Assembly: GCF_000013625.1 (NCBI RefSeq)
Contig: NC_009659.1
Coordinates: 3,224,001-3,288,000 of the forward strand
DNA from: Janthinobacterium sp. Marseille
Lineage (GTDB): Bacteria > Pseudomonadota > Gammaproteobacteria > Burkholderiales > Burkholderiaceae_D
Direction: 5' to 3'
Length of the DNA stretch: 64,000 nt
The translations under genes were made by a program, and so were the position numbers. Below the pieces are notes generated by a model. The model worked only from the letters and a program-made list of their open reading frames with translations, did not search any database and was not told where the DNA came from. This document shows positions 32,389-44,109 of this stretch, piece by piece; the stretch's first letter is position 1; every line of letters starts with the position of its first letter.

Positions 32389-33657
32389 ATGTCAGAAACA
32401 AATGAAGTAAAGACCGCACCGCTGACCGCAGTGGTGATCAATAGCAGCGCGCTGGCTATCATGCTGGCGCTGCTATCCATGCTCGGCCCGTTTTCGATAG
32501 ACACCTATCTGCCGGCCTTCCCGAACATCCAGGCCTCGCTGGATGCCAGCGCACTCGAAGTGCAGCAAACCCTGACCGCCTACCTGTTCTCCTTCGCCGT
32601 CATGATCCTGTGGCATGGCGCCTTGTCGGATGCCTTCGGGCGACGCAATATCATCCTGGTTTCGCTCGCCGTGTTTGCAGTAGCAACGCTCGCCTGCGCC
32701 GCCGTACACAGCATTGAATACCTATGGGTCTTCCGCATGCTGCAAGGGATTTCTGCCGGTGCCGGCGTCGTGATCGGACGTGCCATCATCCGCGACCTGT
32801 ATGCCGGTTCGGCTGCGGAACGTTTGCTGTCGCTGGTCACGATGATATTTTCCATCGCACCGGCGATTGCACCGATACTCGGTGGCTGGATCGTCAAGCA
32901 CAGCAACTGGCGCAACATCTTCCTCGCACTATTCGCCTATGCGGTGCTGCTGCTGATTTATTGCTACAAGCGTTTGCCTGAATCCTTGCCACCGGAAAAA
33001 CGCCAGCCTTTCAATCCACACTTCCTGTATCACAGCTACAAGCGTGTGTTTCGTTCGCCGCTGTTCCATTTGAAAGGCGGGACAGTTGCCTTCAACTTTG
33101 CCGGCATGTTCCTGTACGTGGCGGCAGCACCGGTTTTCCTGGTCCAGCATCTGGGACTCGGACCGGACCAGTTCGGCTGGCAATTCATTCCTACCGTGGC
33201 GGGTATCTTTTGCGGTGCGCTGGCGGCGAATCGCCTGGCCGGGAACATCCCGATTTCGCGTCAGGTCCTGATCGGTTTTGTCTTCCTGATCGGTGCCGGT
33301 ATCTTCAACGTAACTTACCATGCGCTGTTTCCGCCTGCCTTACCATGGTCGGTCGCACCCTTATTCTTTTATACCTTTGGCATGTCCATGGTGGCACCGG
33401 GTGCGACGCTATTGGTATTGGATTTGTTTCCGAACATCCGCGGCACTGTCGCTTCCTGCCAATCCTTCACGCTGACGCTGCTTGGCGCCCTGGTTGCAGG
33501 TGTCATCGCACCGGCGCTATCGCATTCTCCGCTGGCGCTGGCGGCCGGCCAGATGATATTTACGCTGATCGCACTGAGCCTGTGGCTGGGCGGCCGTAGC
33601 TACCGTCGCTTCCTTGATGCACGCCAGGAACCGAATGCGTGGGAAACCGTCGAGTAA
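32389..33657 (+). CDS. Bcr/CflA-family multidrug efflux MFS transporter
   Basis: This 422-aa protein has about 12 transmembrane helices. The early GPFSIDTYLPAFPNI and the GALSDAFGRRNIILVSL loop (motif A) followed by RMLQGISAGAGVVIGRAIIR are typical of the Bcr/CflA drug-proton antiporters (bicyclomycin, chloramphenicol). The substrate is not predictable. It follows gabD by 64 bp and is convergent with the diguanylate cyclase gene. Confidence 0.92.
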   Translation: MSETNEVKTAPLTAVVINSSALAIMLALLSMLGPFSIDTYLPAFPNIQASLDASALEVQQTLTAYLFSFAVMILWHGALSDAFGRRNIILVSLAVFAVATLACAAVHSIEYLWVFRMLQGISAGAGVVIGRAIIRDLYAGSAAERLLSLVTMIFSIAPAIAPILGGWIVKHSNWRNIFLALFAYAVLLLIYCYKRLPESLPPEKRQPFNPHFLYHSYKRVFRSPLFHLKGGTVAFNFAGMFLYVAAAPVFLVQHLGLGPDQFGWQFIPTVAGIFCGALAANRLAGNIPISRQVLIGFVFLIGAGIFNVTYHALFPPALPWSVAPLFFYTFGMSMVAPGATLLVLDLFPNIRGTVASCQSFTLTLLGALVAGVIAPALSHSPLALAAGQMIFTLIALSLWLGGRSYRRFLDARQEPNAWETVE

Positions 33658-33673
33658 TGCAGGGGCTTTCCAG

Positions 33674-35833
33674 CTAGACCGCAACCGCGCGATTCTTGCC
33701 CTTCTTTTTCGCCGCGTACATGGCGCCGTCCGCCAGCGTAATGAGTTGTTCGGGCGTCGTATGGTCTTCCGGCCAGTGCATCGCGATGCCTATGCTGGCA
33801 GAGATAGTTACCGTGGCAGCAGTCAAGGTAAATGGCTGTTGCAAGGTATGCAGAATTTTGTCGGCGACATCCATCGCATCGCTATCGCCATTGAGCATTT
33901 CCAGCACGATGACAAATTCATCGCCGGCCAGTCGTGCGACGGTATCGGTGGTGCGCACCGCACCCAGCAGGCGCTGTGCAATCGTGCGTAACAGCTCGTC
34001 GCCGGCCTCATGACCGTAGCCGTCATTCACCCCTTTGAAACCGTCCAGGTCGAGGAATAGAACGGCCAAAGGCTTGCCAAGGCGTGCGGCACGTGCGATC
34101 GACTCCGGCAATCTCTGTATCAGGGCGCGGCGATTCGGCAAATCGGTGAGCGGATCTTTCAGTGCCATGCCCATCAGTGATGCCTGCAGTAATTTTCTTT
34201 CGGTGATGTCATGCAGGAAGGCGATGAACAGATAACCGTTGCGACGCGCCACGCAAGCCACCGCCAGCTCAATCGGAAACTCCTTGCCATCGCGGCGCAA
34301 GGCGCTCAGTTCCACCCGCCGGTTGATGATATTGCTTTCACCCGTCAGCAGGAAATGCTGGAGATCCCGTTCATAACCATCGCGTAGCGTCGGCGGCACG
34401 ATCAATTCCGCCAAGGGCTGACCGACCGCTTCCTTGTGCGTCCAACCCAGCAAATGTTCCGCCTGTTCATTCCAGTCGACGATGATGCCGTCCTGGTCCA
34501 TCGAAATGAAAGCGTCATTCGCATTTTGCAGTGTCGCGCGCAGCTCGGCTTCACTCTCCTGCAGACGCTCCTGGATCGCCAGTTGCTGTTGCAAGGCATC
34601 TTCCAGTGCCTGCGCCTTTTGCTCTATCTCTTGCGTGCGTTCCTGCACCAGGTGTTCCAGGTTTTCATTCAGGGCGCGCAACTTGCCCACATGTTGCTGC
34701 TCGCGCCCCACCATGTCAGCCAGGGTCAGAGACAGCAAATGCACTTCGTGATAACCATCGATCACCGGAATCGCCGTGCCCGTACCTTCCTTGCGCTGCG
34801 TAATCGCTGCACTCAAGTCATCCAGCGGTCGTGCCAGTTGTCGCGCCAGCGCGACCGCTATCAAGGCCAGCAAGAGACCGAGCGCGGCACCTACCCACAA
34901 AACCTGTTGCTGTAACTCACGAAAATCCGCCAACGCGATTTCTTCCGGCTGCCGGATCAGGACGGCCCATTTCAATGATGGATGTCCTGCGCGTGCACCG
35001 GTCTGCGAATAGCCGGTCAGGTAGCGCCGTCCATCCGGCCATTTTTCCGCAATCGCCCCGGTGCTGCCGGTATGCGCGAGGTCCAGGCTGGTCGTCGTGA
35101 TCGTGCTTTCTTCGAGGTAATCCGGTCCCAACATCACCATGCCGTCGTTGCGCACCACGATGACTTCAACCATATATTGTCGGTCCGCCGGTACCAGCAA
35201 GCTATTTGCAATCCCCCGTGCCCAGTTCCAACTCAGGTGTATGCCCAGTACCCCGCGATAACTGCCGTCGCTGCGCGTGACCGGCAAGGCGACGTCGACA
35301 AAGCGCCAGCGCTCTTCCGACTCCGGCAATTTATCTTCGAGCAATACAGCAGGATGGTAATCACCGATAAATACCTGCTGCGCGCCGCCCTGGAACCAGG
35401 GGCGTTTACTAACGTCAACTCCTTCGAGCAAACCGCCAGAAGCGGAAACCACAATGCCTTTGGGATCGGTCAAACCGATCCATGCGTAATCAGGGAAATT
35501 TTTATGGACGTTGTCGAATACCCGCCGCATCTCGGCAGGGTTTTGTGCGTCGCGCACGGGCACCAGGTCGGCGATCACTTGCGCGTGATCTATCATGCGA
35601 CCCATGCCGCGATCCAGCGAATCGCGCATTTGCCACGATAATTGTTGCAGGCGTTCGTGCGCTTGTTGCTTGGCGTAGGTGGCGGCGAAATGATCGATCA
35701 GCACCAGCAAAGTGAGCATGGTAACGATCACAGTTGCGCACACACCTATCGTCACCAAGGTGGCAAGTCGCAAGCGCTCCGGCGTTTTTGGTCGCATTCG
35801 AGGTCCCGTGGCTACTGCATTGGTAGCATGCAT
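33674..35833 (-). CDS. Membrane diguanylate cyclase with extracytoplasmic Cache, PAS and GGDEF domains
   Basis: This 719-aa protein has a transmembrane helix near residues 24-49, a periplasmic dCache-type sensor to about 305, a second helix (VGAALGLLLALIAVALA) with a HAMP-like continuation, a coiled coil, a PAS domain (ANDAFISMDQDGIIVDWNEQ) and a C-terminal GGDEF domain. The active-site motif is AGDEF, a functional variant in known cyclases, preceded by an RTTD product-inhibition site, so it should make c-di-GMP. No EAL domain is present. The start is uncertain: an alternative ATG lies at 35800. Confidence 0.9.
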   Translation of the reverse strand: MHATNAVATGPRMRPKTPERLRLATLVTIGVCATVIVTMLTLLVLIDHFAATYAKQQAHERLQQLSWQMRDSLDRGMGRMIDHAQVIADLVPVRDAQNPAEMRRVFDNVHKNFPDYAWIGLTDPKGIVVSASGGLLEGVDVSKRPWFQGGAQQVFIGDYHPAVLLEDKLPESEERWRFVDVALPVTRSDGSYRGVLGIHLSWNWARGIANSLLVPADRQYMVEVIVVRNDGMVMLGPDYLEESTITTTSLDLAHTGSTGAIAEKWPDGRRYLTGYSQTGARAGHPSLKWAVLIRQPEEIALADFRELQQQVLWVGAALGLLLALIAVALARQLARPLDDLSAAITQRKEGTGTAIPVIDGYHEVHLLSLTLADMVGREQQHVGKLRALNENLEHLVQERTQEIEQKAQALEDALQQQLAIQERLQESEAELRATLQNANDAFISMDQDGIIVDWNEQAEHLLGWTHKEAVGQPLAELIVPPTLRDGYERDLQHFLLTGESNIINRRVELSALRRDGKEFPIELAVACVARRNGYLFIAFLHDITERKLLQASLMGMALKDPLTDLPNRRALIQRLPESIARAARLGKPLAVLFLDLDGFKGVNDGYGHEAGDELLRTIAQRLLGAVRTTDTVARLAGDEFVIVLEMLNGDSDAMDVADKILHTLQQPFTLTAATVTISASIGIAMHWPEDHTTPEQLITLADGAMYAAKKKGKNRAVAV

Positions 35834-35995
35834 CTTTTAGATGCACTGGTGCTTTAATAGTTTTATGGAAAGATTTCTTTTTGTGAAAAATTTCTTTAAT
35901 ACCAAGCAAATACCATGACGGCTCGCAACTACTTTAAACGCAGTTTGCAGATGAATGCGAATTTTATAAGCTGAATTAAAGGGGAAAAGCGGAAA

Positions 35996-37762
35996 TCAGT
36001 ACAAATCGCGCAACACTTCCTGCAGCATTTCGGGTGCCAGTGGTTTATGCAGGATACGTAAATTCGCATTGGCAATGCTGCTAATGCTCTCGACCGACGT
36101 GTCACCGGTGATCACCACCGCCGGAATCAGGTAGCCGCTGGCTTGCCGCACTGCCTGCACCACGTCGATACCACTGACATTTTCCGCCAGGCGGAAATCG
36201 CTCAGGATCAGGTCAAACGCCATACCGGATGCCGCCTGATAAGTCTTCACTGCCTGCAAGGCTGCTCCCAGCGACGCCACTGCCACTACCTGGTGTCCCC
36301 AAGATGACAGCAGTAAGCGCATGCTATCCAGCACATTCGCATCGTCATCTATCACCAGGATGTTTTTCGCGGCAGCGAGAAGTACCGATGCAGCCAGCGG
36401 CGCCGTGCTCACGGTGGCCACCCTCGGTGCCAGCGGCAACCAGATCGAAAAGACCGAACCGCGCCCCGGGATGGAATGCAAACCTATCCTCAGTTTCAAC
36501 AAATCGGCCGTGCGCTTGACGATAGCCAGCCCCAGTCCCAGCCCGTGTTCCCTACGCCGCGCCGCATTGCCGATCTGGTAAAACTCGCTGAAGATCAATT
36601 GCGACTGCTCGGCCGCAATGCCGATCCCGGTATCCAGCACTTGTACTTCGATAAAAGCACCACGCCGACGCGCCCCGACCAACACCTTGCCACTCTCGGT
36701 GTAACGCAAGGCATTCGATACAAAATTCGCCAATATGCTGTGCAGCAAGGCACGATCGGTTTGTACCAGCACTGCCGTCGGCCTGACGATGAAGCGCAGT
36801 TTTTGCTCGACGGCGACGGCTGAAAATTGCTGGTCTATCGTTTCCAGTAAATCCTGCAAATCAAACACTTCGCGTTTAACCTTGACCGCGCCGGCATCCA
36901 GCTTTGAAATATCGAGCAACACATCCAGCAATTGCACCAAACCCTTCAGCGCTGCCTGCAGCTTGCCGGCAATATTTCCCACCTCTTCAGCACGTACCGT
37001 CGGTGCATTGCACAACGCGCGCAAGGTGGCGATATACAAACCGAGTGCATGCGTAGGCTGGCGCAAATCATGGCTGGCCGCCGCCAGGAATTGCGACTTC
37101 GAACGACTGGCCGATTCGGCCCTTTCCTTCTCTTGCCGCAGTTGTGCGATCAGTTGCGTATTCTCAAAGCGCAGCGATACCGCTTCGCGCACCGTGCGAT
37201 GCACATTCCGGCTATACGCCAGGTTCACGCCGAGCAAGAACAGCGAGAGCAGGGCCAGTACGGAAAACAGCGGCCCGCCATAGGCAAAGCAGCGCACGGC
37301 AAACGGCAGTACCGTCGGCAATGCAAATGCGTAATAGGCAGGTGGAAACGAAGATTGTGATGCAACCGAACCGCCCGTCATGCCGGCCAGCAGTATGCAA
37401 ATGAATACCGTGATCACGGTGTTTTCAGGCGTAAAGAAAAAGATGCCGATGGAACCCCACAGGCAACCGGACAATCCGGCGAACAGTGTATAGGTCCACG
37501 CGCGCCGCGCTGCCTGATCCGGGCCATGCACAATCCGCAGGTCGCGCCGCACGATCACGATACGGAGAGAAGTCAGTACGAAGATAGCCGCCGCCCACGG
37601 CAATAGCACGCTGTGCGGCAGCTCACCCCACAGCAAGTAAACCGACAGCACGACCACCGCGAAATTGCCAAAAAAAATAGGCGTCGCCTGCCGGTACAAG
37701 ACATTCACCAGCTCGCTGAAGATGCGCGCTTCAACAGCAGGTGCCGCGGAATGATCGTTCAT
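35996..37762 (-). CDS. Hybrid sensor histidine kinase with N-terminal membrane domain
   Basis: From ATG 37762 (MNDHSAAPA) the protein is 588 aa; a start at 37777 is also possible. About six hydrophobic segments fill residues 25-195, followed by a coiled coil, a HisKA domain with the phosphoacceptor His in AASHDLRQPTHAL, an ATPase domain (FVSNALRYT, DTGIGI, GLGLGLAIVKR) and a C-terminal receiver (VIDDD, with the phospho-Asp in LILSDFRLAE). It is divergent from the LuxR-type regulator at 37886, so they probably form one system. The signal is unknown. Confidence 0.9.
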   Translation of the reverse strand: MNDHSAAPAVEARIFSELVNVLYRQATPIFFGNFAVVVLSVYLLWGELPHSVLLPWAAAIFVLTSLRIVIVRRDLRIVHGPDQAARRAWTYTLFAGLSGCLWGSIGIFFFTPENTVITVFICILLAGMTGGSVASQSSFPPAYYAFALPTVLPFAVRCFAYGGPLFSVLALLSLFLLGVNLAYSRNVHRTVREAVSLRFENTQLIAQLRQEKERAESASRSKSQFLAAASHDLRQPTHALGLYIATLRALCNAPTVRAEEVGNIAGKLQAALKGLVQLLDVLLDISKLDAGAVKVKREVFDLQDLLETIDQQFSAVAVEQKLRFIVRPTAVLVQTDRALLHSILANFVSNALRYTESGKVLVGARRRGAFIEVQVLDTGIGIAAEQSQLIFSEFYQIGNAARRREHGLGLGLAIVKRTADLLKLRIGLHSIPGRGSVFSIWLPLAPRVATVSTAPLAASVLLAAAKNILVIDDDANVLDSMRLLLSSWGHQVVAVASLGAALQAVKTYQAASGMAFDLILSDFRLAENVSGIDVVQAVRQASGYLIPAVVITGDTSVESISSIANANLRILHKPLAPEMLQEVLRDLY

Positions 37763-37885
37763 GAATGTTTCGCCCAAAACATAGAAAATGGGGTCGCTAC
37801 CGCCCCGCAGTGTAATATCTCGCTATTATTACCATGTGACAATAGTTCCAGCGGCAATTATTCCAGCATCCCCGTATCCAGCGCC

Positions 37886-38497
37886 ATGACGAAAATCGTA
37901 ATCGCAGAAGATCACACCCTGATCCGGGAAGGATTACGATCCCTGATGGCACATGTCGCGGGAATGGAGATCGTCGCCGACACCGGCAGTGGCGCGCAGG
38001 TGGAAGAACTCCTGCAGCAGACCCCGACCGATTTGCTCCTGCTCGACCTCGATTTACCCGGCTGCCACGGCATCACCCTCACCGCCCGCATCAAACAAAG
38101 CCACCCGCATATCAAAATCCTGATCCTGACCGGTTCGACCGATCACAACAGCGTGCGCCAGGCTTTTGCCGCCGGCGCGGATGGTTATCTGCTCAAACTG
38201 GAAGACAGCAGCGAATTGCTGGAAGCGATCCCGACCGTGCTGGATAACCGGCGCTACGTCAGCAAATTGCTGGGACCACTGACCCACTTCCAGGATAGCG
38301 AAGATCAAGCCGTCACACCGCGCGAACAACAAATCCTGAAACTGGTCGCTGCCGGCAAGTCATCACAGGAAATTGCCGATACGCTTGAACTGAGCGTCTT
38401 CACCGTACGCAAGCACAAGCAAAACCTGATGGCCAAACTATCATTGCACAACGCAGTTGAACTGACGCGTTATGCGATGCATCAGGGCCTGCTGTAA
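37886..38497 (+). CDS. LuxR/NarL-type response regulator
   Basis: This 203-aa protein has a receiver domain (IVIAEDHTLIREGL, phospho-Asp in LLLDLDLPG, a Lys in YLLKLED) and a LuxR-type helix-turn-helix (TPREQQILKLVAAGKSSQEI, LSVFTVRKHKQNLMAKL). It is divergent from the hybrid kinase with a 123-bp intergenic region that probably carries both promoters. A longer frame starting at 37613 lies over the kinase gene and lacks support. Confidence 0.92.
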   Translation: MTKIVIAEDHTLIREGLRSLMAHVAGMEIVADTGSGAQVEELLQQTPTDLLLLDLDLPGCHGITLTARIKQSHPHIKILILTGSTDHNSVRQAFAAGADGYLLKLEDSSELLEAIPTVLDNRRYVSKLLGPLTHFQDSEDQAVTPREQQILKLVAAGKSSQEIADTLELSVFTVRKHKQNLMAKLSLHNAVELTRYAMHQGLL

Positions 38498-38505
38498 ATC
38501 GCCTA

Positions 38506-39855
38506 TCAAAATTGTGTCTGCACACCGACGCTGAAGATATTGCGTGAGTAATTGCTGTAACCGATATTCGATGGATTATCGATCTGCGTATATTGCGCCC
38601 GCACCACCATATTGCGCCCCGCCCATGAACTGATGTCCCACAGGCTGGTCAGGCTGGCGGTCTTTTGCGTATCTTCGCGTGCCGGGAAGAAGAAGCTGCC
38701 TTCGTCATACTTCACCTTGGAATAACTATAGTTACCGACTACCGTCCATTGCGGGTTGATGCGATAGGCAGCGAACACACTAGGCCCGTCCAGGCGACGC
38801 GAGTACACCGCGGCATCGGCATGCTCACGCTGCACATTGTAGTCAGCACCTGCCTGTAAATCAGGCTGCACTTGCGCGACCACTCCCACACTGCCGAGCA
38901 CACCATCTGCGTTTCTGTTGTGATCCAGATGCACAGTACGGTTGATGTATCCAAGCGAACCTGTCAGCGACCAGGTGGGATTCAAGTTGCGCGAAAAACG
39001 TGCGATCACACCTGGTGTCGTTTCATTCATGCGATTCGCCTGCCGCGAAAAACCGATATTCGGCTGTATGCTGGCGCTCCAGCTTTTATCGCGATAAATG
39101 AACGCGGCAGACAGCGACATATATTCATTATTGAAGTCGGACGTATCGAAGTATGCATTCCCCAGCAATACACCCTGGTACAGCACTGACCAGTGCTCAT
39201 TCAGCGGCACCAGATAACTGCCGGTCAGGCTACCACTGGCACCCCATGAAGAACGCGGCATCGCATCGGGCGACAAAATGAAATTGCCCGGGAAACCGCC
39301 AACAGTCGCCGGGACTATATTCGACACAGGGCCACCGTTGATATTGCTGTCATGTACCAGGCCCGCATAGAACTCCAGCGACCAGGGCTTACCCGATGCC
39401 TGGCGTGCGAATGCGGCGGGGTCATCACGCCCCAGTTGCTCGATCAGGTTATTCATCTGGGTCGATACCTGTCCTGCTGGCAGCAAAGGCAAGGTTTCCT
39501 TGTATAGCTGCGCTGCTTCATCCCTGCGATCCAGCGCAACCAGGATAGCCGCCAGCTCGACCCGTGGATTGGCTTCTGCCGGCTTTAAAGCGATCACGCG
39601 CTGGTAGTAGGCAATTGCCGTATCCGTACGCTGCAGGGATGCATTACAGCGCGCCAGTACATACAGGCGATCAGCATCCACACTGTTTGCAGGTGTATCT
39701 GCCAGCAGTGCACATGCCATATCCGGCCTGCCGTTTTCCTGCATCAAACGCGCTACCAGTAATTCACTGCGGCTATCGACGACAGTCGGCGTGGCGTAAG
39801 CCACGGAAGAAGAAAACATCAATGCAACTGCAGCCGAACGAAGAATGTAATTCAT
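38506..39855 (-). CDS. Slam-type outer-membrane translocon (TPR plus DUF560 barrel)
   Basis: From ATG 39855 the protein is 449 aa. A signal peptide (cleavage after AYA, residue 21) is followed by TPR-like helices at about 33-125 (DADRLYVLARCNASLQ, TAIAYYQRVIALKP, DEAAQLYKETL) and, from about residue 158, a beta-barrel of alternating polar and aromatic strands. The first strand contains HDSNINGG, close to the D-x-N-x-N signature of the surface lipoprotein assembly modifier (Slam, DUF560) family, and the chain ends in Phe, as barrel proteins do. Slam proteins move TbpB-like cargo across the outer membrane. The gene for a protein with a TbpB-like barrel lies 37 bp upstream on the same strand, the expected cargo arrangement. 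Family membership is inferred from pattern, not from a search. Confidence 0.8.
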   Translation of the reverse strand: MNYILRSAAVALMFSSSVAYATPTVVDSRSELLVARLMQENGRPDMACALLADTPANSVDADRLYVLARCNASLQRTDTAIAYYQRVIALKPAEANPRVELAAILVALDRRDEAAQLYKETLPLLPAGQVSTQMNNLIEQLGRDDPAAFARQASGKPWSLEFYAGLVHDSNINGGPVSNIVPATVGGFPGNFILSPDAMPRSSWGASGSLTGSYLVPLNEHWSVLYQGVLLGNAYFDTSDFNNEYMSLSAAFIYRDKSWSASIQPNIGFSRQANRMNETTPGVIARFSRNLNPTWSLTGSLGYINRTVHLDHNRNADGVLGSVGVVAQVQPDLQAGADYNVQREHADAAVYSRRLDGPSVFAAYRINPQWTVVGNYSYSKVKYDEGSFFFPAREDTQKTASLTSLWDISSWAGRNMVVRAQYTQIDNPSNIGYSNYSRNIFSVGVQTQF

Positions 39856-39892
39856 GGGTGAAGTAGGCTTGAAAAAAAGGAAGGTCATGAGA

Positions 39893-41782
39893 TCAACGTG
39901 TAGCGGCAAAACTACCACCACCGCTTACGCTATTCGTCGTCATATCCCAGGAGCCCTTGACTGCGTTGGCGGCCGGGCCAAAGAACTGTCCGTTTCTGAT
40001 AAAGCCATTCATGGCTGCACCGTTGTACGTACCACTCATGCCGCCACCCACATATCCGCCGATGTAAGCGACACTATTAAAGCTCGCACTGCCTTTGTTA
40101 TTGTCGAACTGCACATTGCCGCCTATCGGTGTGCCATTGCCTATGTTGGCAAAGTTGACGTTCATGCTCAGGTTGGCACCCACAGCCGAATTGTCACTCA
40201 GGGTTCCGGTCATGCGGCCATTGAAAGTCGCATTCAGGTTGGTCGGAAAATTCGCACGCGGTGTGACCACTGTGTAATCAGCGCCGACTGTCACCGCGTT
40301 TGCCAACGTAATATTGTTCGCATTGCTCGATGCAGCAATGGCGGCTGCCTGTGCGGCAGCTAATGCAGCCTGTATTGCAGTGAGCCCTCCGGCTGTTATA
40401 CCGGCTATACCCGTTGCTACAACGGCAGTCCCACCAGGCGGAGTGACGATCTGCTCCACCGCCTTATTCGCACCCAGGATAGGAGCATCGCTTTTCACCG
40501 GTGCTGTGGTCTGCCCGACAGGTGGATTAATTGAACCGATTTTTGCTATCAACTGATCGAGTTCTGCCTGGCTCAATTTGCCTTTGCTGTAGGCCGTCAG
40601 CAACTCCATGAAATCAGCCGAAGTTTTCTTGTCATCGGAAACAACAGTGAGAGATGGTTTACTGATGCCCTCTATCATCCCTGCAGTCTGGGCCACACCA
40701 AGTTCACCCCAAGGCAAGCTTGGTATATCGGAAAATTTACCTCCTGATTTAACCGCCAGTTCCTGCAGCTTGGCGGCAATCATCGCGAATTGTGCACGCG
40801 TCATCGTTGCATCCAGCACGGGTGTGGTGCCACTACTGGACGAGAAGACACCTGCTTCCAGCAGCTTTTGATACTTCTCCTGCGCGGTACTTGCAGGACT
40901 GGCTGGCGTAGTCGCTGGCAAACTGGTTTGCTTGGTCGGTAAAATTTGTTTTGGCTGTTCCAGTGCCGGCTTCTCAACTTGCCTGATCTCTTCCTTCAAT
41001 TGCTGCTGTTGCGTTTTCTCCATCAGCTTTTGTTGTTCCAGTTGCTGCGTCAGTAGCAATTGCTTTTGCTGTTCCAGCGTCGGCTTCTCCACCTGCTTGA
41101 TTTGTTCTTTTGCCTGCTCAGGTTGAACTTGCTCAAGCTGCTTCTTTTGCTCCAATTGCTGCGTCAGTAGCAATTGCTTCCGCTGTTCTGGCGTCAGCGT
41201 CTCAGTCTTCTTGATTTCTTCCTTAAGCTGCTCTTGCTGCTGCAAAGTCTTGGACGGCAACTTTTGCTGTTCCATTGTCAGCTGTTCAGTTTTCTTCACT
41301 TGTTCCGGCACAGCCTGTTGCTGCGTCATTTCAGACTGCGGTGCTGACATCAATTGCCTGCGCTGCTCCAGTGTTAACTCCTGCGGCTGAGGTTGCAGTG
41401 CGACTTCCTGCTGCTTGGTCTGCGACTGCATGTAGCCCAGGATCTGCTGTCTTTCCTCCGGCGTATACGTCTTGCTCAACAAGATGTCCCGCCCTGCAGG
41501 CGTGAGATTCTTCAGCAGATTCGTGATACGCAACAATGCGCTGTCAGATAAAGGTATCGGCGTCCGCTGACCACCTGACTGCTGTCCTCCTTGTTGTCCA
41601 GGAGGCTGCTTCTGCATGGCCCGACCCAAATCCACATCGATACCTTGCACATCTTGCGCTTGTACCGGCTCTACATGAGTGGCTACGAGTGTCAACAAAA
41701 CAGAGGCAGCACAACTCAGCACCCATGACTGCCGTACCGGTGTAAGCAGGCTGTACTTATATATAGAGGTAAATGATTGCAT
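39893..41782 (-). CDS. Secreted repeat protein with SLH-like module and C-terminal TbpB-like barrel (candidate Slam cargo)
   Basis: From ATG 41782 (ribosome site AGGGAG) the protein is 629 aa. A long signal peptide ends at about residue 42 (VQA); no convincing lipobox is present. Residues about 125-290 are Gln/Glu/Lys-rich repeats with units such as TLEQQKQLLLTQQLEQ, predicted to be helical. Residues about 300-375 resemble an SLH module (LLEAGVFS, ATMTRAQFAMIAAKLQEL, FSDIP, AGMIEGIS). An Ala/Gly hydrophobic helix lies near 455-488. The last ~110 residues are Gly/Asn-rich beta strands with FNGRMTGTL, GGGMSGTYNGAAM and GQFFGPAANAVKGSWDM, resembling the TbpB barrel, where the motif is F-Y-G-P-x-A-x-E-x-G-G. 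It precedes the Slam-like gene in a probable operon. Confidence 0.75.
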   Translation of the reverse strand: MQSFTSIYKYSLLTPVRQSWVLSCAASVLLTLVATHVEPVQAQDVQGIDVDLGRAMQKQPPGQQGGQQSGGQRTPIPLSDSALLRITNLLKNLTPAGRDILLSKTYTPEERQQILGYMQSQTKQQEVALQPQPQELTLEQRRQLMSAPQSEMTQQQAVPEQVKKTEQLTMEQQKLPSKTLQQQEQLKEEIKKTETLTPEQRKQLLLTQQLEQKKQLEQVQPEQAKEQIKQVEKPTLEQQKQLLLTQQLEQQKLMEKTQQQQLKEEIRQVEKPALEQPKQILPTKQTSLPATTPASPASTAQEKYQKLLEAGVFSSSSGTTPVLDATMTRAQFAMIAAKLQELAVKSGGKFSDIPSLPWGELGVAQTAGMIEGISKPSLTVVSDDKKTSADFMELLTAYSKGKLSQAELDQLIAKIGSINPPVGQTTAPVKSDAPILGANKAVEQIVTPPGGTAVVATGIAGITAGGLTAIQAALAAAQAAAIAASSNANNITLANAVTVGADYTVVTPRANFPTNLNATFNGRMTGTLSDNSAVGANLSMNVNFANIGNGTPIGGNVQFDNNKGSASFNSVAYIGGYVGGGMSGTYNGAAMNGFIRNGQFFGPAANAVKGSWDMTTNSVSGGGSFAATR

Positions 41783-41860
41783 GTGCTTCTCCCTGGGCAC
41801 GCCGTATATATAGAGACGGCTAATGGCGGCGAGAATATCAATGGGCTTGCCGGGAGTAAA

Positions 41861-41876
41861 TACTGCAAATGCAGTA
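41861..41876. repeat. Palindrome upstream of the Slam cargo gene
   Basis: Arms TACTGC and GCAGTA are separated by 4 bases, about 80 bp before the start codon at 41782. It is a candidate operator. The intergenic region 41783-42085 otherwise shows only AT-rich promoter-like sequence for the two divergent genes. Confidence 0.5.
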
Positions 41877-42085
41877 GTCGAAGCGAATAAACGCAGTCAG
41901 GAAGGCGCAAAATTCATCACGAATTCTTAACGCTATTCTCACGATAAAACATGGTTTTTCACTCTGAAAATGATTTCAAAATATTTGTGTAATCGCGTCA
42001 ACCGCATTAATCGGCTGGCGTTATATACGTACGAACTGATTAAGCAGTTCGCACAATTTCCTAATACTTTAGAGAGAGCACTCAA

Positions 42086-42307
42086 ATGAACAAATTAATC
42101 GCTGCCCTGGTTGCTGGTCTGTTTGCCTCCACCGTTTTTGCACAAGCCGCTGCTCCAGCACCTGCTGCTGCTCCAGCTCCTGTAGCTGCCAAAACCGAAG
42201 CAAAAACCGCAGCTAAAGCACCAAAAGCACACGCCAAGAAACACAAAAAATCGACCAAGAAAGCAAAAGCAGCTGCACCAGCAGCAGCTCCAGCTGAAGC
42301 CAAGTAA
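42086..42307 (+). CDS. Small secreted Ala/Lys-rich protein
   Basis: This 73-aa protein has a signal peptide (MNKLIAALVAGLFASTVFA, cleavage after FAQA or so) and a low-complexity mature part of Ala, Pro and Lys with AKKHKKSTKKAKA. It resembles acid-shock or basic periplasmic proteins only in composition; I do not recognise a family. A GAGAGAG ribosome site precedes the ATG, and two terminators follow. Codon use is consistent with real translation. Confidence 0.75.
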   Translation: MNKLIAALVAGLFASTVFAQAAAPAPAAAPAPVAAKTEAKTAAKAPKAHAKKHKKSTKKAKAAAPAAAPAEAK

Positions 42308-42319
42308 TTCGCGGTAATT

Positions 42320-42348
42320 AAAAAAGACAGGCATCGCCTGTCTTTTTT
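42320..42348 (+). terminator. Intrinsic terminator of the small secreted protein gene
   Basis: A GACAGGC / GCCTGTC stem with a 3-base loop, A run before and T run after, begins 13 bp past the stop codon. Confidence 0.92.
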
Positions 42349-42350
42349 CT

Positions 42351-42386
42351 TGCCTGGTCAGACCGGATACTGACCAGGCATTTTTA
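42351..42386 (+). terminator. Second tandem terminator
   Basis: An 11-bp perfect stem (42351-42361 with 42370-42380) is followed by five T. It directly follows the first terminator and lies before the convergent gamma-glutamyltransferase gene, so it may serve as a backup. Confidence 0.85.
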
Positions 42387-42414
42387 TTGGCGCTTTACTT
42401 CATGCGCCCGCAGT

Positions 42415-44109
42415 TTAAACACCCAAAGCCCTGCCATCGCTGCGCGGATCATGCGCACCGGAGAAAGTCCCTGTCTTCTGGTCGATCACGATCGCACCCG
42501 GATGACCTGCCAATGGACTTTGTGCCGGAATCACACTCATCTCGTGACCACGTCGTGCCAGTTCCTGGAATACCTGGTCGCCGGCATCTTTTTCCAGTTT
42601 CAGCGAATCACGCGTATCCGAAAAAGTTTTACCCAGCAAGAAGCGTGGCCGCGACAAGGCCGTCAACGGATCCATACCGTAATCGATCATGCGCGTCAGG
42701 ATGGCTGACAAGGTTTGCGGCTGCCCATCCGCACCTTGCGTACCGTACAGGATGTGCGGTTTGTCATTCTTCAGATACATGCCCGGATTCAAGGTGTGGA
42801 ACGGACGCTTGCCTGCTTCCAGTACATTCGGCACACCCGGTTTCAGGCTGAATGAAGCACCGCGGTTATGCCACAGGATGCCGGTATCACCCGCCATCAC
42901 GCCACTACCCCAGTCGAAGTACACGGTTTCCAACATCGAGACCGAATTGCCTTGCGAATCGGTGGCACCGATGTAGACCGTGTCGCCATGTTTATAGACG
43001 TGCGGCCATGGCATCGCCTGGTCCATCTTGATGCTGCCGGCCCACTGGTCGAGATTGGCCTTGGATAGCAACTTCGCCGATGGCATATTGACGAACTCTG
43101 GATCGGCGACAAACTGGTTGCGATCAATGAAAGCGCGTTTTACCGCTTCCACCACGACGTGATAATAGTCGGCACTGCCTTCCGGAATTTTCTTCAGGTC
43201 GAAGCGATCCAATATACCCATGATTTCCAGCGTCGTGATGCCCTGGGTAGGCGGCTGGTTGGCCAGCAAGACACCGCCGCGATAAGCGACGCGCAAAGGC
43301 GGCTCGATACGTGCCTGGGTTTTTGCCAGGTCGGCTGCGGTCAATGGTGAACCGGCTTCTTTCAAACCTTTGGCTATGCGTTCCGCCAGCTTGCCGTCAT
43401 AGAAATCGCGGTAACCGCGTACCGCCAGCATTTCCAGCGTATCGGCCAGTTGCTGCTGCTTGAACATTTGTCCGACTTCCGGCACCTTGCCGTCTATCAT
43501 GAAGTTGCTGGCGAGGGCCGGCAGGTCGGCCATTTCCTTTTGCCGGAAATCCATCCAGAAACGTTCTGAAGGCGAAACCGGAAAACCATTGCGTGCAAAG
43601 CCGATCGCCGGCTTCAGCAATTCAGCCCAGCTCTTGGTACCGGCCAGTTCATTCTTGCTGATGTCGAAGGCTTTGCCGAGTGTATCCACATTGGCGGCAG
43701 TCGTCAGCATGGAGCCGGGCCCGCGTACCGGGATTGCGCCGCTGTATTGCGGCAGTACACCAGGTGCCTGGCCGATACCGGACAGGGTCCGGACCTTGCC
43801 ATTGCGATCGCTGATGATCATGAAAGCATCGCCGCCAAAGCTGGCGAAATGCGGATAGGTGACACTCAGGCAGCTGGCGATGGCAATCGCAGCTTCAATC
43901 GCATTGCCGCCGGATTTCAATACTTCCAGGCCGGCGTTGGTAGCCAGTTCATGCGGGCTGGTGACCATACCCTTGGTTGAGGTTGCCAGCACGCTCTTCG
44001 GCTTGGCTTCCAGCGCCATCGACATTGGCGCAATCGAACTCAGTGCCATTGCACCTGAAGCCGATAAAAAGTCTCTTCTCGTCATATCGTGAAAATTTTT
44101 GTTTTTCAT
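42415..44109 (-). CDS. Gamma-glutamyltransferase family protein, Tat-exported
   Basis: This 564-aa protein starts with a twin-arginine signal (MTRRDFLSASGAMALSS). The GGT fold is visible: GGNAIEAAIAIASCLSVTYP with FGGDAFMII, and the autoprocessing Thr in HGDTVYIGATDSQGNSVS, followed by FDWGSGVMAGDTGILWHNRG. It hydrolyses or transfers gamma-glutamyl groups in the periplasm if typical; the real substrate may differ. A start at 44085 is also possible. It lies after a terminator, so is probably transcribed from its own promoter, downstream of a second paralogue at 46235. Confidence 0.88.
   Translation of the reverse strand: MKNKNFHDMTRRDFLSASGAMALSSIAPMSMALEAKPKSVLATSTKGMVTSPHELATNAGLEVLKSGGNAIEAAIAIASCLSVTYPHFASFGGDAFMIISDRNGKVRTLSGIGQAPGVLPQYSGAIPVRGPGSMLTTAANVDTLGKAFDISKNELAGTKSWAELLKPAIGFARNGFPVSPSERFWMDFRQKEMADLPALASNFMIDGKVPEVGQMFKQQQLADTLEMLAVRGYRDFYDGKLAERIAKGLKEAGSPLTAADLAKTQARIEPPLRVAYRGGVLLANQPPTQGITTLEIMGILDRFDLKKIPEGSADYYHVVVEAVKRAFIDRNQFVADPEFVNMPSAKLLSKANLDQWAGSIKMDQAMPWPHVYKHGDTVYIGATDSQGNSVSMLETVYFDWGSGVMAGDTGILWHNRGASFSLKPGVPNVLEAGKRPFHTLNPGMYLKNDKPHILYGTQGADGQPQTLSAILTRMIDYGMDPLTALSRPRFLLGKTFSDTRDSLKLEKDAGDQVFQELARRGHEMSVIPAQSPLAGHPGAIVIDQKTGTFSGAHDPRSDGRALGV

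Follow-up and report, generated by a model that had tools for sequence, protein, structure and literature searches.

A candidate type 11 secretion (Slam) gene pair in Janthinobacterium sp. Marseille with a predicted modular cargo lacking a strict lipobox

The 64,000-nucleotide stretch of Janthinobacterium sp. Marseille DNA analysed here (the window; NC_009659.1, positions 3,224,001 to 3,288,000) carries two adjacent genes which raise the question of whether a Slam-like outer-membrane protein exports a non-lipidated partner and, if so, how such a partner might stay at the cell surface. A preliminary description had placed both genes on the same strand 37 nt apart and had quoted one motif from each product, all of which was confirmed on the sequence: the putative type 11 secretion system (T11SS) cargo gene (39893..41782, 629 aa) lies 5' of the Slam-like gene (38506..39855, 449 aa counted from the ATG at 39855) on the minus strand, the cargo stop and the Slam ATG are separated by 37 nt, and the motifs were found at Slam residue 168 (HDSNING) and cargo residue 598 (GQFFGPAANAVKGSW). 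Earlier GTG starts for both genes are present in the list of open reading frames; the promoter scan gave 0 promoter-like sites against 3.0 expected, and there were 7 terminator-like sites against 3.8 expected, figures that carry no weight in what follows. The parts of both proteins described below are likewise on the minus strand. In our judgement these neighbours very likely constitute a type 11 secretion (Slam) pair, which would export a non-lipidated, modular surface protein.

The product of the Slam-like gene matched PF04575 (DUF560, SlipAM) at 50.1 bits, above the cut-off of 22 and over profile positions 1-288 of 288, so the claim of a DUF560 protein was not refuted. This match covers residues 158-449 (38509..39384), with HDSNING just inside its start, and is preceded by a TPR N-domain in which TPR_19 scored 28.9 bits (cut-off 25) and the Slam-specific model TPR_Slam (PF24575) 17.9 bits, under its cut-off of 35.2. 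As its family match indicates, the protein is a full-length Slam/DUF560 (T11SS) outer-membrane protein, with the TPR domain followed by a barrel. It is a divergent one, since in BLASTP it was 23% identical to the Slam at L003 across 370 residues and had a single 38-residue segment in common with that at L002 (among the relatives, these two scored highest against PF04575). No other PF04575 match was found in the 4,110,251-base genome, and PF04575 was found in 23 of 148 related genomes, 20 of them over the cut-off.

The full-length model of the cargo was poor (mean pLDDT 44.7) and a shorter construct was therefore modelled, in which the last 120 residues of the cargo were predicted as an eight-stranded barrel with pLDDT mostly 82-93. 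A PDB search gave 27 matches at E <= 1e-3, all of them TbpB, fHbp or NHBA, and we predict that the cargo C-terminus (residues 508-629, 39896..40261) is a barrel of this TbpB/fHbp/NHBA type, the preliminary description having proposed a TbpB barrel. TbpB_B_D (PF01298) matched 24/24 members of the cargo family at E <= 10 (best 1.1e-6) and is present in the precomputed annotation of P0019 and P0024, while the window protein itself scored 13.7 against it, under the cut-off of 26, and was missed by the TbpB_B_D search of genomes. Repeating the protein search with the family profile gave one more, short protein (P0025). Before the barrel lie an Ala/Gly-rich, partly helical linker assigned from model and sequence (residues 445-500, 40283..40450), and a helix and low-confidence coil in which no handle domain was recognised, the model being of low confidence there. 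The DUF560 match and the barrel model together support the reading of a translocon with a non-lipidated TbpB-barrel cargo.

Slam1 of Neisseria in proteoliposomes is reported to move unfolded TbpB, with Skp as holdase, and a C-terminal specificity motif read by Slam has been proposed for TbpB (PMC9090332). By analogy with TbpB, the window barrel may address the cargo to Slam: Sec would take the cargo across the inner membrane, the protein would be kept unfolded in the periplasm, and the Slam channel would recognise the C-terminal eight-stranded barrel and move the cargo through the outer membrane, with the barrel folding outside.

The adjacency of the two genes is conserved in relatives. The closest named relatives are Herminiimonas contaminans, Herminiimonas sp. 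KBW02 and H. fonticola, and the organism had rightly been called Oxalobacteraceae-like. Of 93 pattern matches obtained when contigs were scanned with this family's profile, 6 encode relatives, and a Slam homologue was found directly 3' of the barrel gene on the same strand at 6/6 loci (E 1e-285 to 2.5e-5), namely three from Herminiimonas, two from Herbaspirillum and one from Emcibacter (a MAG, with the weakest Slam match). Within the genus the cargo was found in 4 of 13 genomes and a Slam orthologue (at least 83% identity) in the same four, although these counts overlap with those of the loci because three of the four genomes are the Herminiimonas loci. Slam matches in G001 and G003 were weak and partial only. 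In G001 both flanks are retained (window 33613-38475 and 41821-44109 align to stretches of L067 that lie about 50 bases from each other), showing that the intervening block of two genes and short flanks is absent. G005, which belongs to the same genus, encodes a different DUF560 protein and, downstream of it, a FecR-domain protein. We consider the pair to be beyond chance on account of the full-length PF04575 match, the barrel and its conserved adjacency to Slam.

Some barrel genes of the family had no Slam found nearby, which bears on whether this cargo depends on its neighbour. Seven of the 13 TbpB_B_D-positive related genomes were among the PF04575 matches and 6 were not; a Slam profile made in this analysis recovered a Slam approximately 2 kb away in one of those six (G115, L074), indicating that the PF04575 family search can miss Slams, and found none in the 7-10 kb surrounding the other 5 barrel genes, all of which belong to the window's family. 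Across the order, the barrel search matched 5 of 399 genomes (G000 at 1.7e-64, the next at 8.6e-8), and an HMM of the window family's barrel matched at 4 of 30 Slam loci (L001, L008, L009 and L013; short flanks). FecR-type neighbours of other Slams were tried as homologous barrels but this found no support, as hhalign against the barrel of the window's family gave a probability of 0.2% using seven C-termini (L031, L038, L040, L043, L044, L048 and L045, the last FecR-like by eye only); L039, L041, L046 and L049 stood outside this comparison, and L049 was the only FecR-type neighbour with a TbpB_B_D match (E 3.4e-4). For a sigma/FecR/TonB-receptor/TbpB-like/Slam gene group of Lysobacter, FecR is described as a regulator with a gene of its own and not as a cargo part (PMC11233812).

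It is thus conceivable that the barrel protein gets to the surface, or remains periplasmic, by another route and that the adjacent Slam serves something else. The family barrel genes with no Slam found nearby favour this, as does the precedent of NHBA, a lipoprotein unlike the window cargo, whose exposure on the E. coli surface is reported not to be substantially influenced by Slam1 (PMC5500766); as NHBA has the nearest fold, this calls for caution over Slam-dependence. We nevertheless regard such a route as rather unlikely, given that Slam directly follows the barrel gene at all six loci, that both genes are absent together in G001 and that no second PF04575 match was found in the genome.

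If Slam exports the cargo, as we think very likely, the rest of the chain must be considered. Residues 1-42 (41657..41782) are a putative Sec signal peptide whose n-region is long and whose cleavage site was placed by eye; the single Cys (residue 24) precedes the hydrophobic stretch and fits a loose lipobox pattern only. Besides the window protein, P0002 and P0018 fit this loose pattern; the strict lipobox consensus fitted 0/24 family members in a pattern test, by which alone lipidation was judged, and 9 of the 24 have no Cys within the first 60 residues. Lacking a lipobox, the cargo is not expected to be held by lipid. A short helical module follows (residues 78-126, 41405..41551), with three helices in the full-length model and pLDDT blocks of 76-86 over residues 81-120.

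Beyond this module is a Q/E/K-rich repeat region (residues 129-290, 40913..41398; 27% Q) with a period of 38 aa: self-identity of residues 129-295 reached 0.37 at lag 38 and no other lag of 8-59 rose above 0.22, and a 114-nt direct DNA repeat matches the protein period. Between the window protein and the near-identical P0002 there are 13 substitutions, and P0002 lacks exactly residues 199-236, a single 38-aa unit (41075..41188 by protein comparison). These Q-rich repeats may form a stalk of variable length.

Residues 294-360 (40703..40903) form an SLH-like module, and comparing profiles with solved structures bears out the earlier remark that the N-terminal half is SLH-like. The family profile (A1) matched SpaA SLH structures (6cwr and others) with whole-sequence E of 1.2e-10 to 2.5e-10 (next match 0.21), the best single SLH stretch (i-Evalue 1.3e-6) aligning through the GVFS...TRAE motif, and the segment of one relative gave E 1.9e-8 (next match 0.077). 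The window protein has TRAQ at residue 328 in place of the SLH TRAE, with TRAQ/TRAE-like residues in 20 of the 24 family members. Pfam SLH was found in 2 of the 24 at E <= 10 (best 0.001), with no match in the window protein and none in its genome at E <= 1. By sequence, this segment of the cargo is homologous to SLH. Residues 361-400 (40583..40702) are possibly the remainder of a second unit (alignment judged by eye, low-confidence model), giving about two units at most by sequence in a region modelled with low confidence (pLDDT 31-55). SpaA of Paenibacillus alvei is a Gram-positive S-layer protein with three SLH repeats, whereas the window protein has about one and a half to two units in a predicted T11SS cargo; NHBA is not known to have an SLH module. 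Most of the SLH part is missing from P0020-P0022 and from the Herbaspirillum loci, which shows that it is not needed for Slam pairing.

The SLH-like module would probably bind a cell-surface or matrix polysaccharide and keep the exported protein at the surface, where it would serve as an adhesin or matrix protein that needs no lipid, but we put forward SLH-based anchoring of the cargo only tentatively. The genome has one polysaccharide pyruvyl transferase (PF04230), encoded elsewhere, which is not specific evidence for an SLH ligand. SLH domains of some Gram-negative outer-membrane proteins, for example OmpM, bind peptidoglycan, and the same export pair could therefore have another topology in which the SLH-like N-half sits on peptidoglycan in the periplasm, the Q/K/E-rich repeats span the periplasm and the barrel lies outside, making the protein an envelope-spanning tether. 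The SLH homology and the missing strict lipobox would suit such a tether, but it is unlikely, as two Herbaspirillum relatives have the barrel beside Slam with most of the SLH part missing and the published Slam model, as reported, exports the whole chain (PMC9090332).

Returning to the Slam pair with a surface-retained cargo, its expression may be under local control. Next to the pair lie a LuxR/NarL-type response regulator (37886..38497, plus strand; Response_reg and GerE) and a hybrid histidine kinase (35996..37762, minus strand; HisKA, HATPase_c and Response_reg), and a kinase and LuxR-type regulator were found at 5/5 Oxalobacteraceae loci with the cargo family, in another gene order in Herbaspirillum rhizosphaerae. 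No kinase or regulator match was found on the 3.2-kb Emcibacter contig or at the G005 locus (L031). A kinase orthologue (at least 72% identity; next best 39%) was present in 5 of the 13 genus genomes, these being the four with the pair and G001, although kinship within the genus makes such counts weaker as evidence. Among the five loci, only the three from Herminiimonas matched the diguanylate cyclase and gamma-glutamyltransferase neighbours. Expression of the cargo and its Slam is probably set by the kinase and regulator linked to them.

These two were among six neighbours scanned, the others being a GGDEF protein, a gamma-glutamyltransferase, a DUF1097 protein and an amidohydrolase, and none of the six is an iron or heme gene. 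The barrel fold is common to TbpB and hemophilins and could point to a metal or heme piracy protein of either kind, but this is very unlikely given those neighbours and the failure to recognise a handle domain (in a low-confidence model), and iron piracy was set aside on these grounds. The same two findings do not establish the suggestion of the preliminary description that the cargo could be a surface-anchored adhesin or display scaffold and not an iron-piracy protein. That the DUF560 protein is instead a PgaA/EpsL-like polysaccharide exporter beside a matrix protein, as a weak EpsL match and the inclusion of some PgaA homologues within DUF560 (PMC8406197) might suggest, is extremely improbable and was rejected, since EpsL scored 34.7 bits against a cut-off of 275 and the gene has a full-length DUF560 match and is paired with a barrel protein.

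Grossman 2021 (PMC8406197) and Grossman 2025 (PMC12282271) defined the T11SS together with its non-lipidated cargo and some ten architectures of cargo proteins, and the pair described here, which in our reading is a Slam with its exported cargo, can be set beside two of the systems described there. It resembles HrpB-HrpC and the hemophilins (PMC8406197) in having a DUF560 protein gene beside that of a protein which is not lipidated and ends in an eight-stranded barrel, but differs in its divergent Slam and in its cargo, which is 629 aa long, has no recognised handle and carries both a Q-rich repeat stalk and an SLH-like module. With Pls-like and 'disordered N-terminus' cargo (PMC12282271), one Pls-like member of which has had its export demonstrated (Grossman 2025), it shares a long N-half, repeat-rich or disordered, that precedes the barrel, but those groups are mostly lipoproteins (173/193 and 196/204) and have a beta-strand pedestal. 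Related T11SS cargo often has a lipid anchor or an iron-grabbing part where the window cargo has the Q-rich stalk and SLH-like module. The main texts of PMC8406197 and PMC12282271 do not mention SLH, S-layer, Herminiimonas or FecR, nor does that of PMC12282271 mention glutamine, the six Burkholderiales names searched for are not mentioned in Hooda 2017 (PMC5449769), and among the main texts searched no paper was found joining T11SS with S-layer homology or SLH with TbpB. As SLH, S-layer and Herminiimonas are absent from the main texts of both T11SS surveys, a predicted T11SS cargo in which the export barrel is joined to both a stalk of Q-rich repeats and an SLH-like module appears to be new with respect to them. 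The fuller proposal, of an SLH module that replaces the lipid by binding surface polysaccharide or bridging to peptidoglycan, on a stalk that changes in 38-residue steps and with a dedicated two-component system beside the pair, is speculative but possible.

All seven T11SS outer-membrane proteins counted as verified by experiment ahead of the 2025 survey fall within that survey's animal-associated cluster 1 (PMC12282271), whereas the window pair sits in the Herminiimonas/Herbaspirillum lineage. The pair offers a testable case of how non-lipidated cargo might stay at the surface and of how wide a range of unrelated N-terminal modules the barrel can carry, with the question of which part of such a protein may serve Slam and which retention.

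A gene for a FecR-domain protein adjoins the Slam gene at ten loci (L031, L038, L039, L040, L041, L043, L044, L046, L048 and L049), all of them around PF04575 (Slam/DUF560) matches in other genomes of the window's order, with L031 coming from the window's own genus. The FecR family, PF04773, scored above its cut-off in all ten of these neighbours, which had been selected by eye for scanning, leaving out those in L042, L045, L047, L050 and others. The FecR-domain gene lies immediately 3' of the Slam gene in nine of these loci and upstream of it in L049, the only one of the ten with an additional match to TbpB_B_D, the cargo barrel family. Word searches of two surveys of T11SS (Grossman 2021, PMC8406197; Grossman 2025, PMC12282271) did not find FecR in the main text of either. 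The FecR-domain neighbours of Slam could represent an undescribed class of T11SS cargo.

Within the window's family, a CHASE2-adenylate cyclase gene (L037:6315-8189) adjoins a Slam-like gene which falls under the PF04575 cut-off (22 bits), yet matches the Slam profile built in this analysis. In other genera of the family, five loci (L069-L073) have TbpB_B_D matches with no Slam found in the surrounding 7-10 kb; by eye, the L070 and L071 proteins have a lipoprotein-like start, and a very long frame resembling a two-partner-secretion adhesin adjoins at L071 and L072. A genome of the window's genus (G001, locus L067) carries orthologues of the window's hybrid histidine kinase (35996-37762, minus strand) and LuxR/NarL-type response regulator (37886-38497, plus strand), and the export pair is absent from the corresponding site.

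Glycosyltransferase family 41 genes, three of the four with TPR matches, were present at three FecR-type Slam loci (L031:7908-10109, L038:8183-10279 and L040:1056-3245) and at one Slam locus outside those ten (L042:1352-3613). Because HMW1C is a member of this family, these loci resemble HMW1A-B-C, but with Slam replacing HMW1B, and their T11SS cargo is possibly glycosylated.
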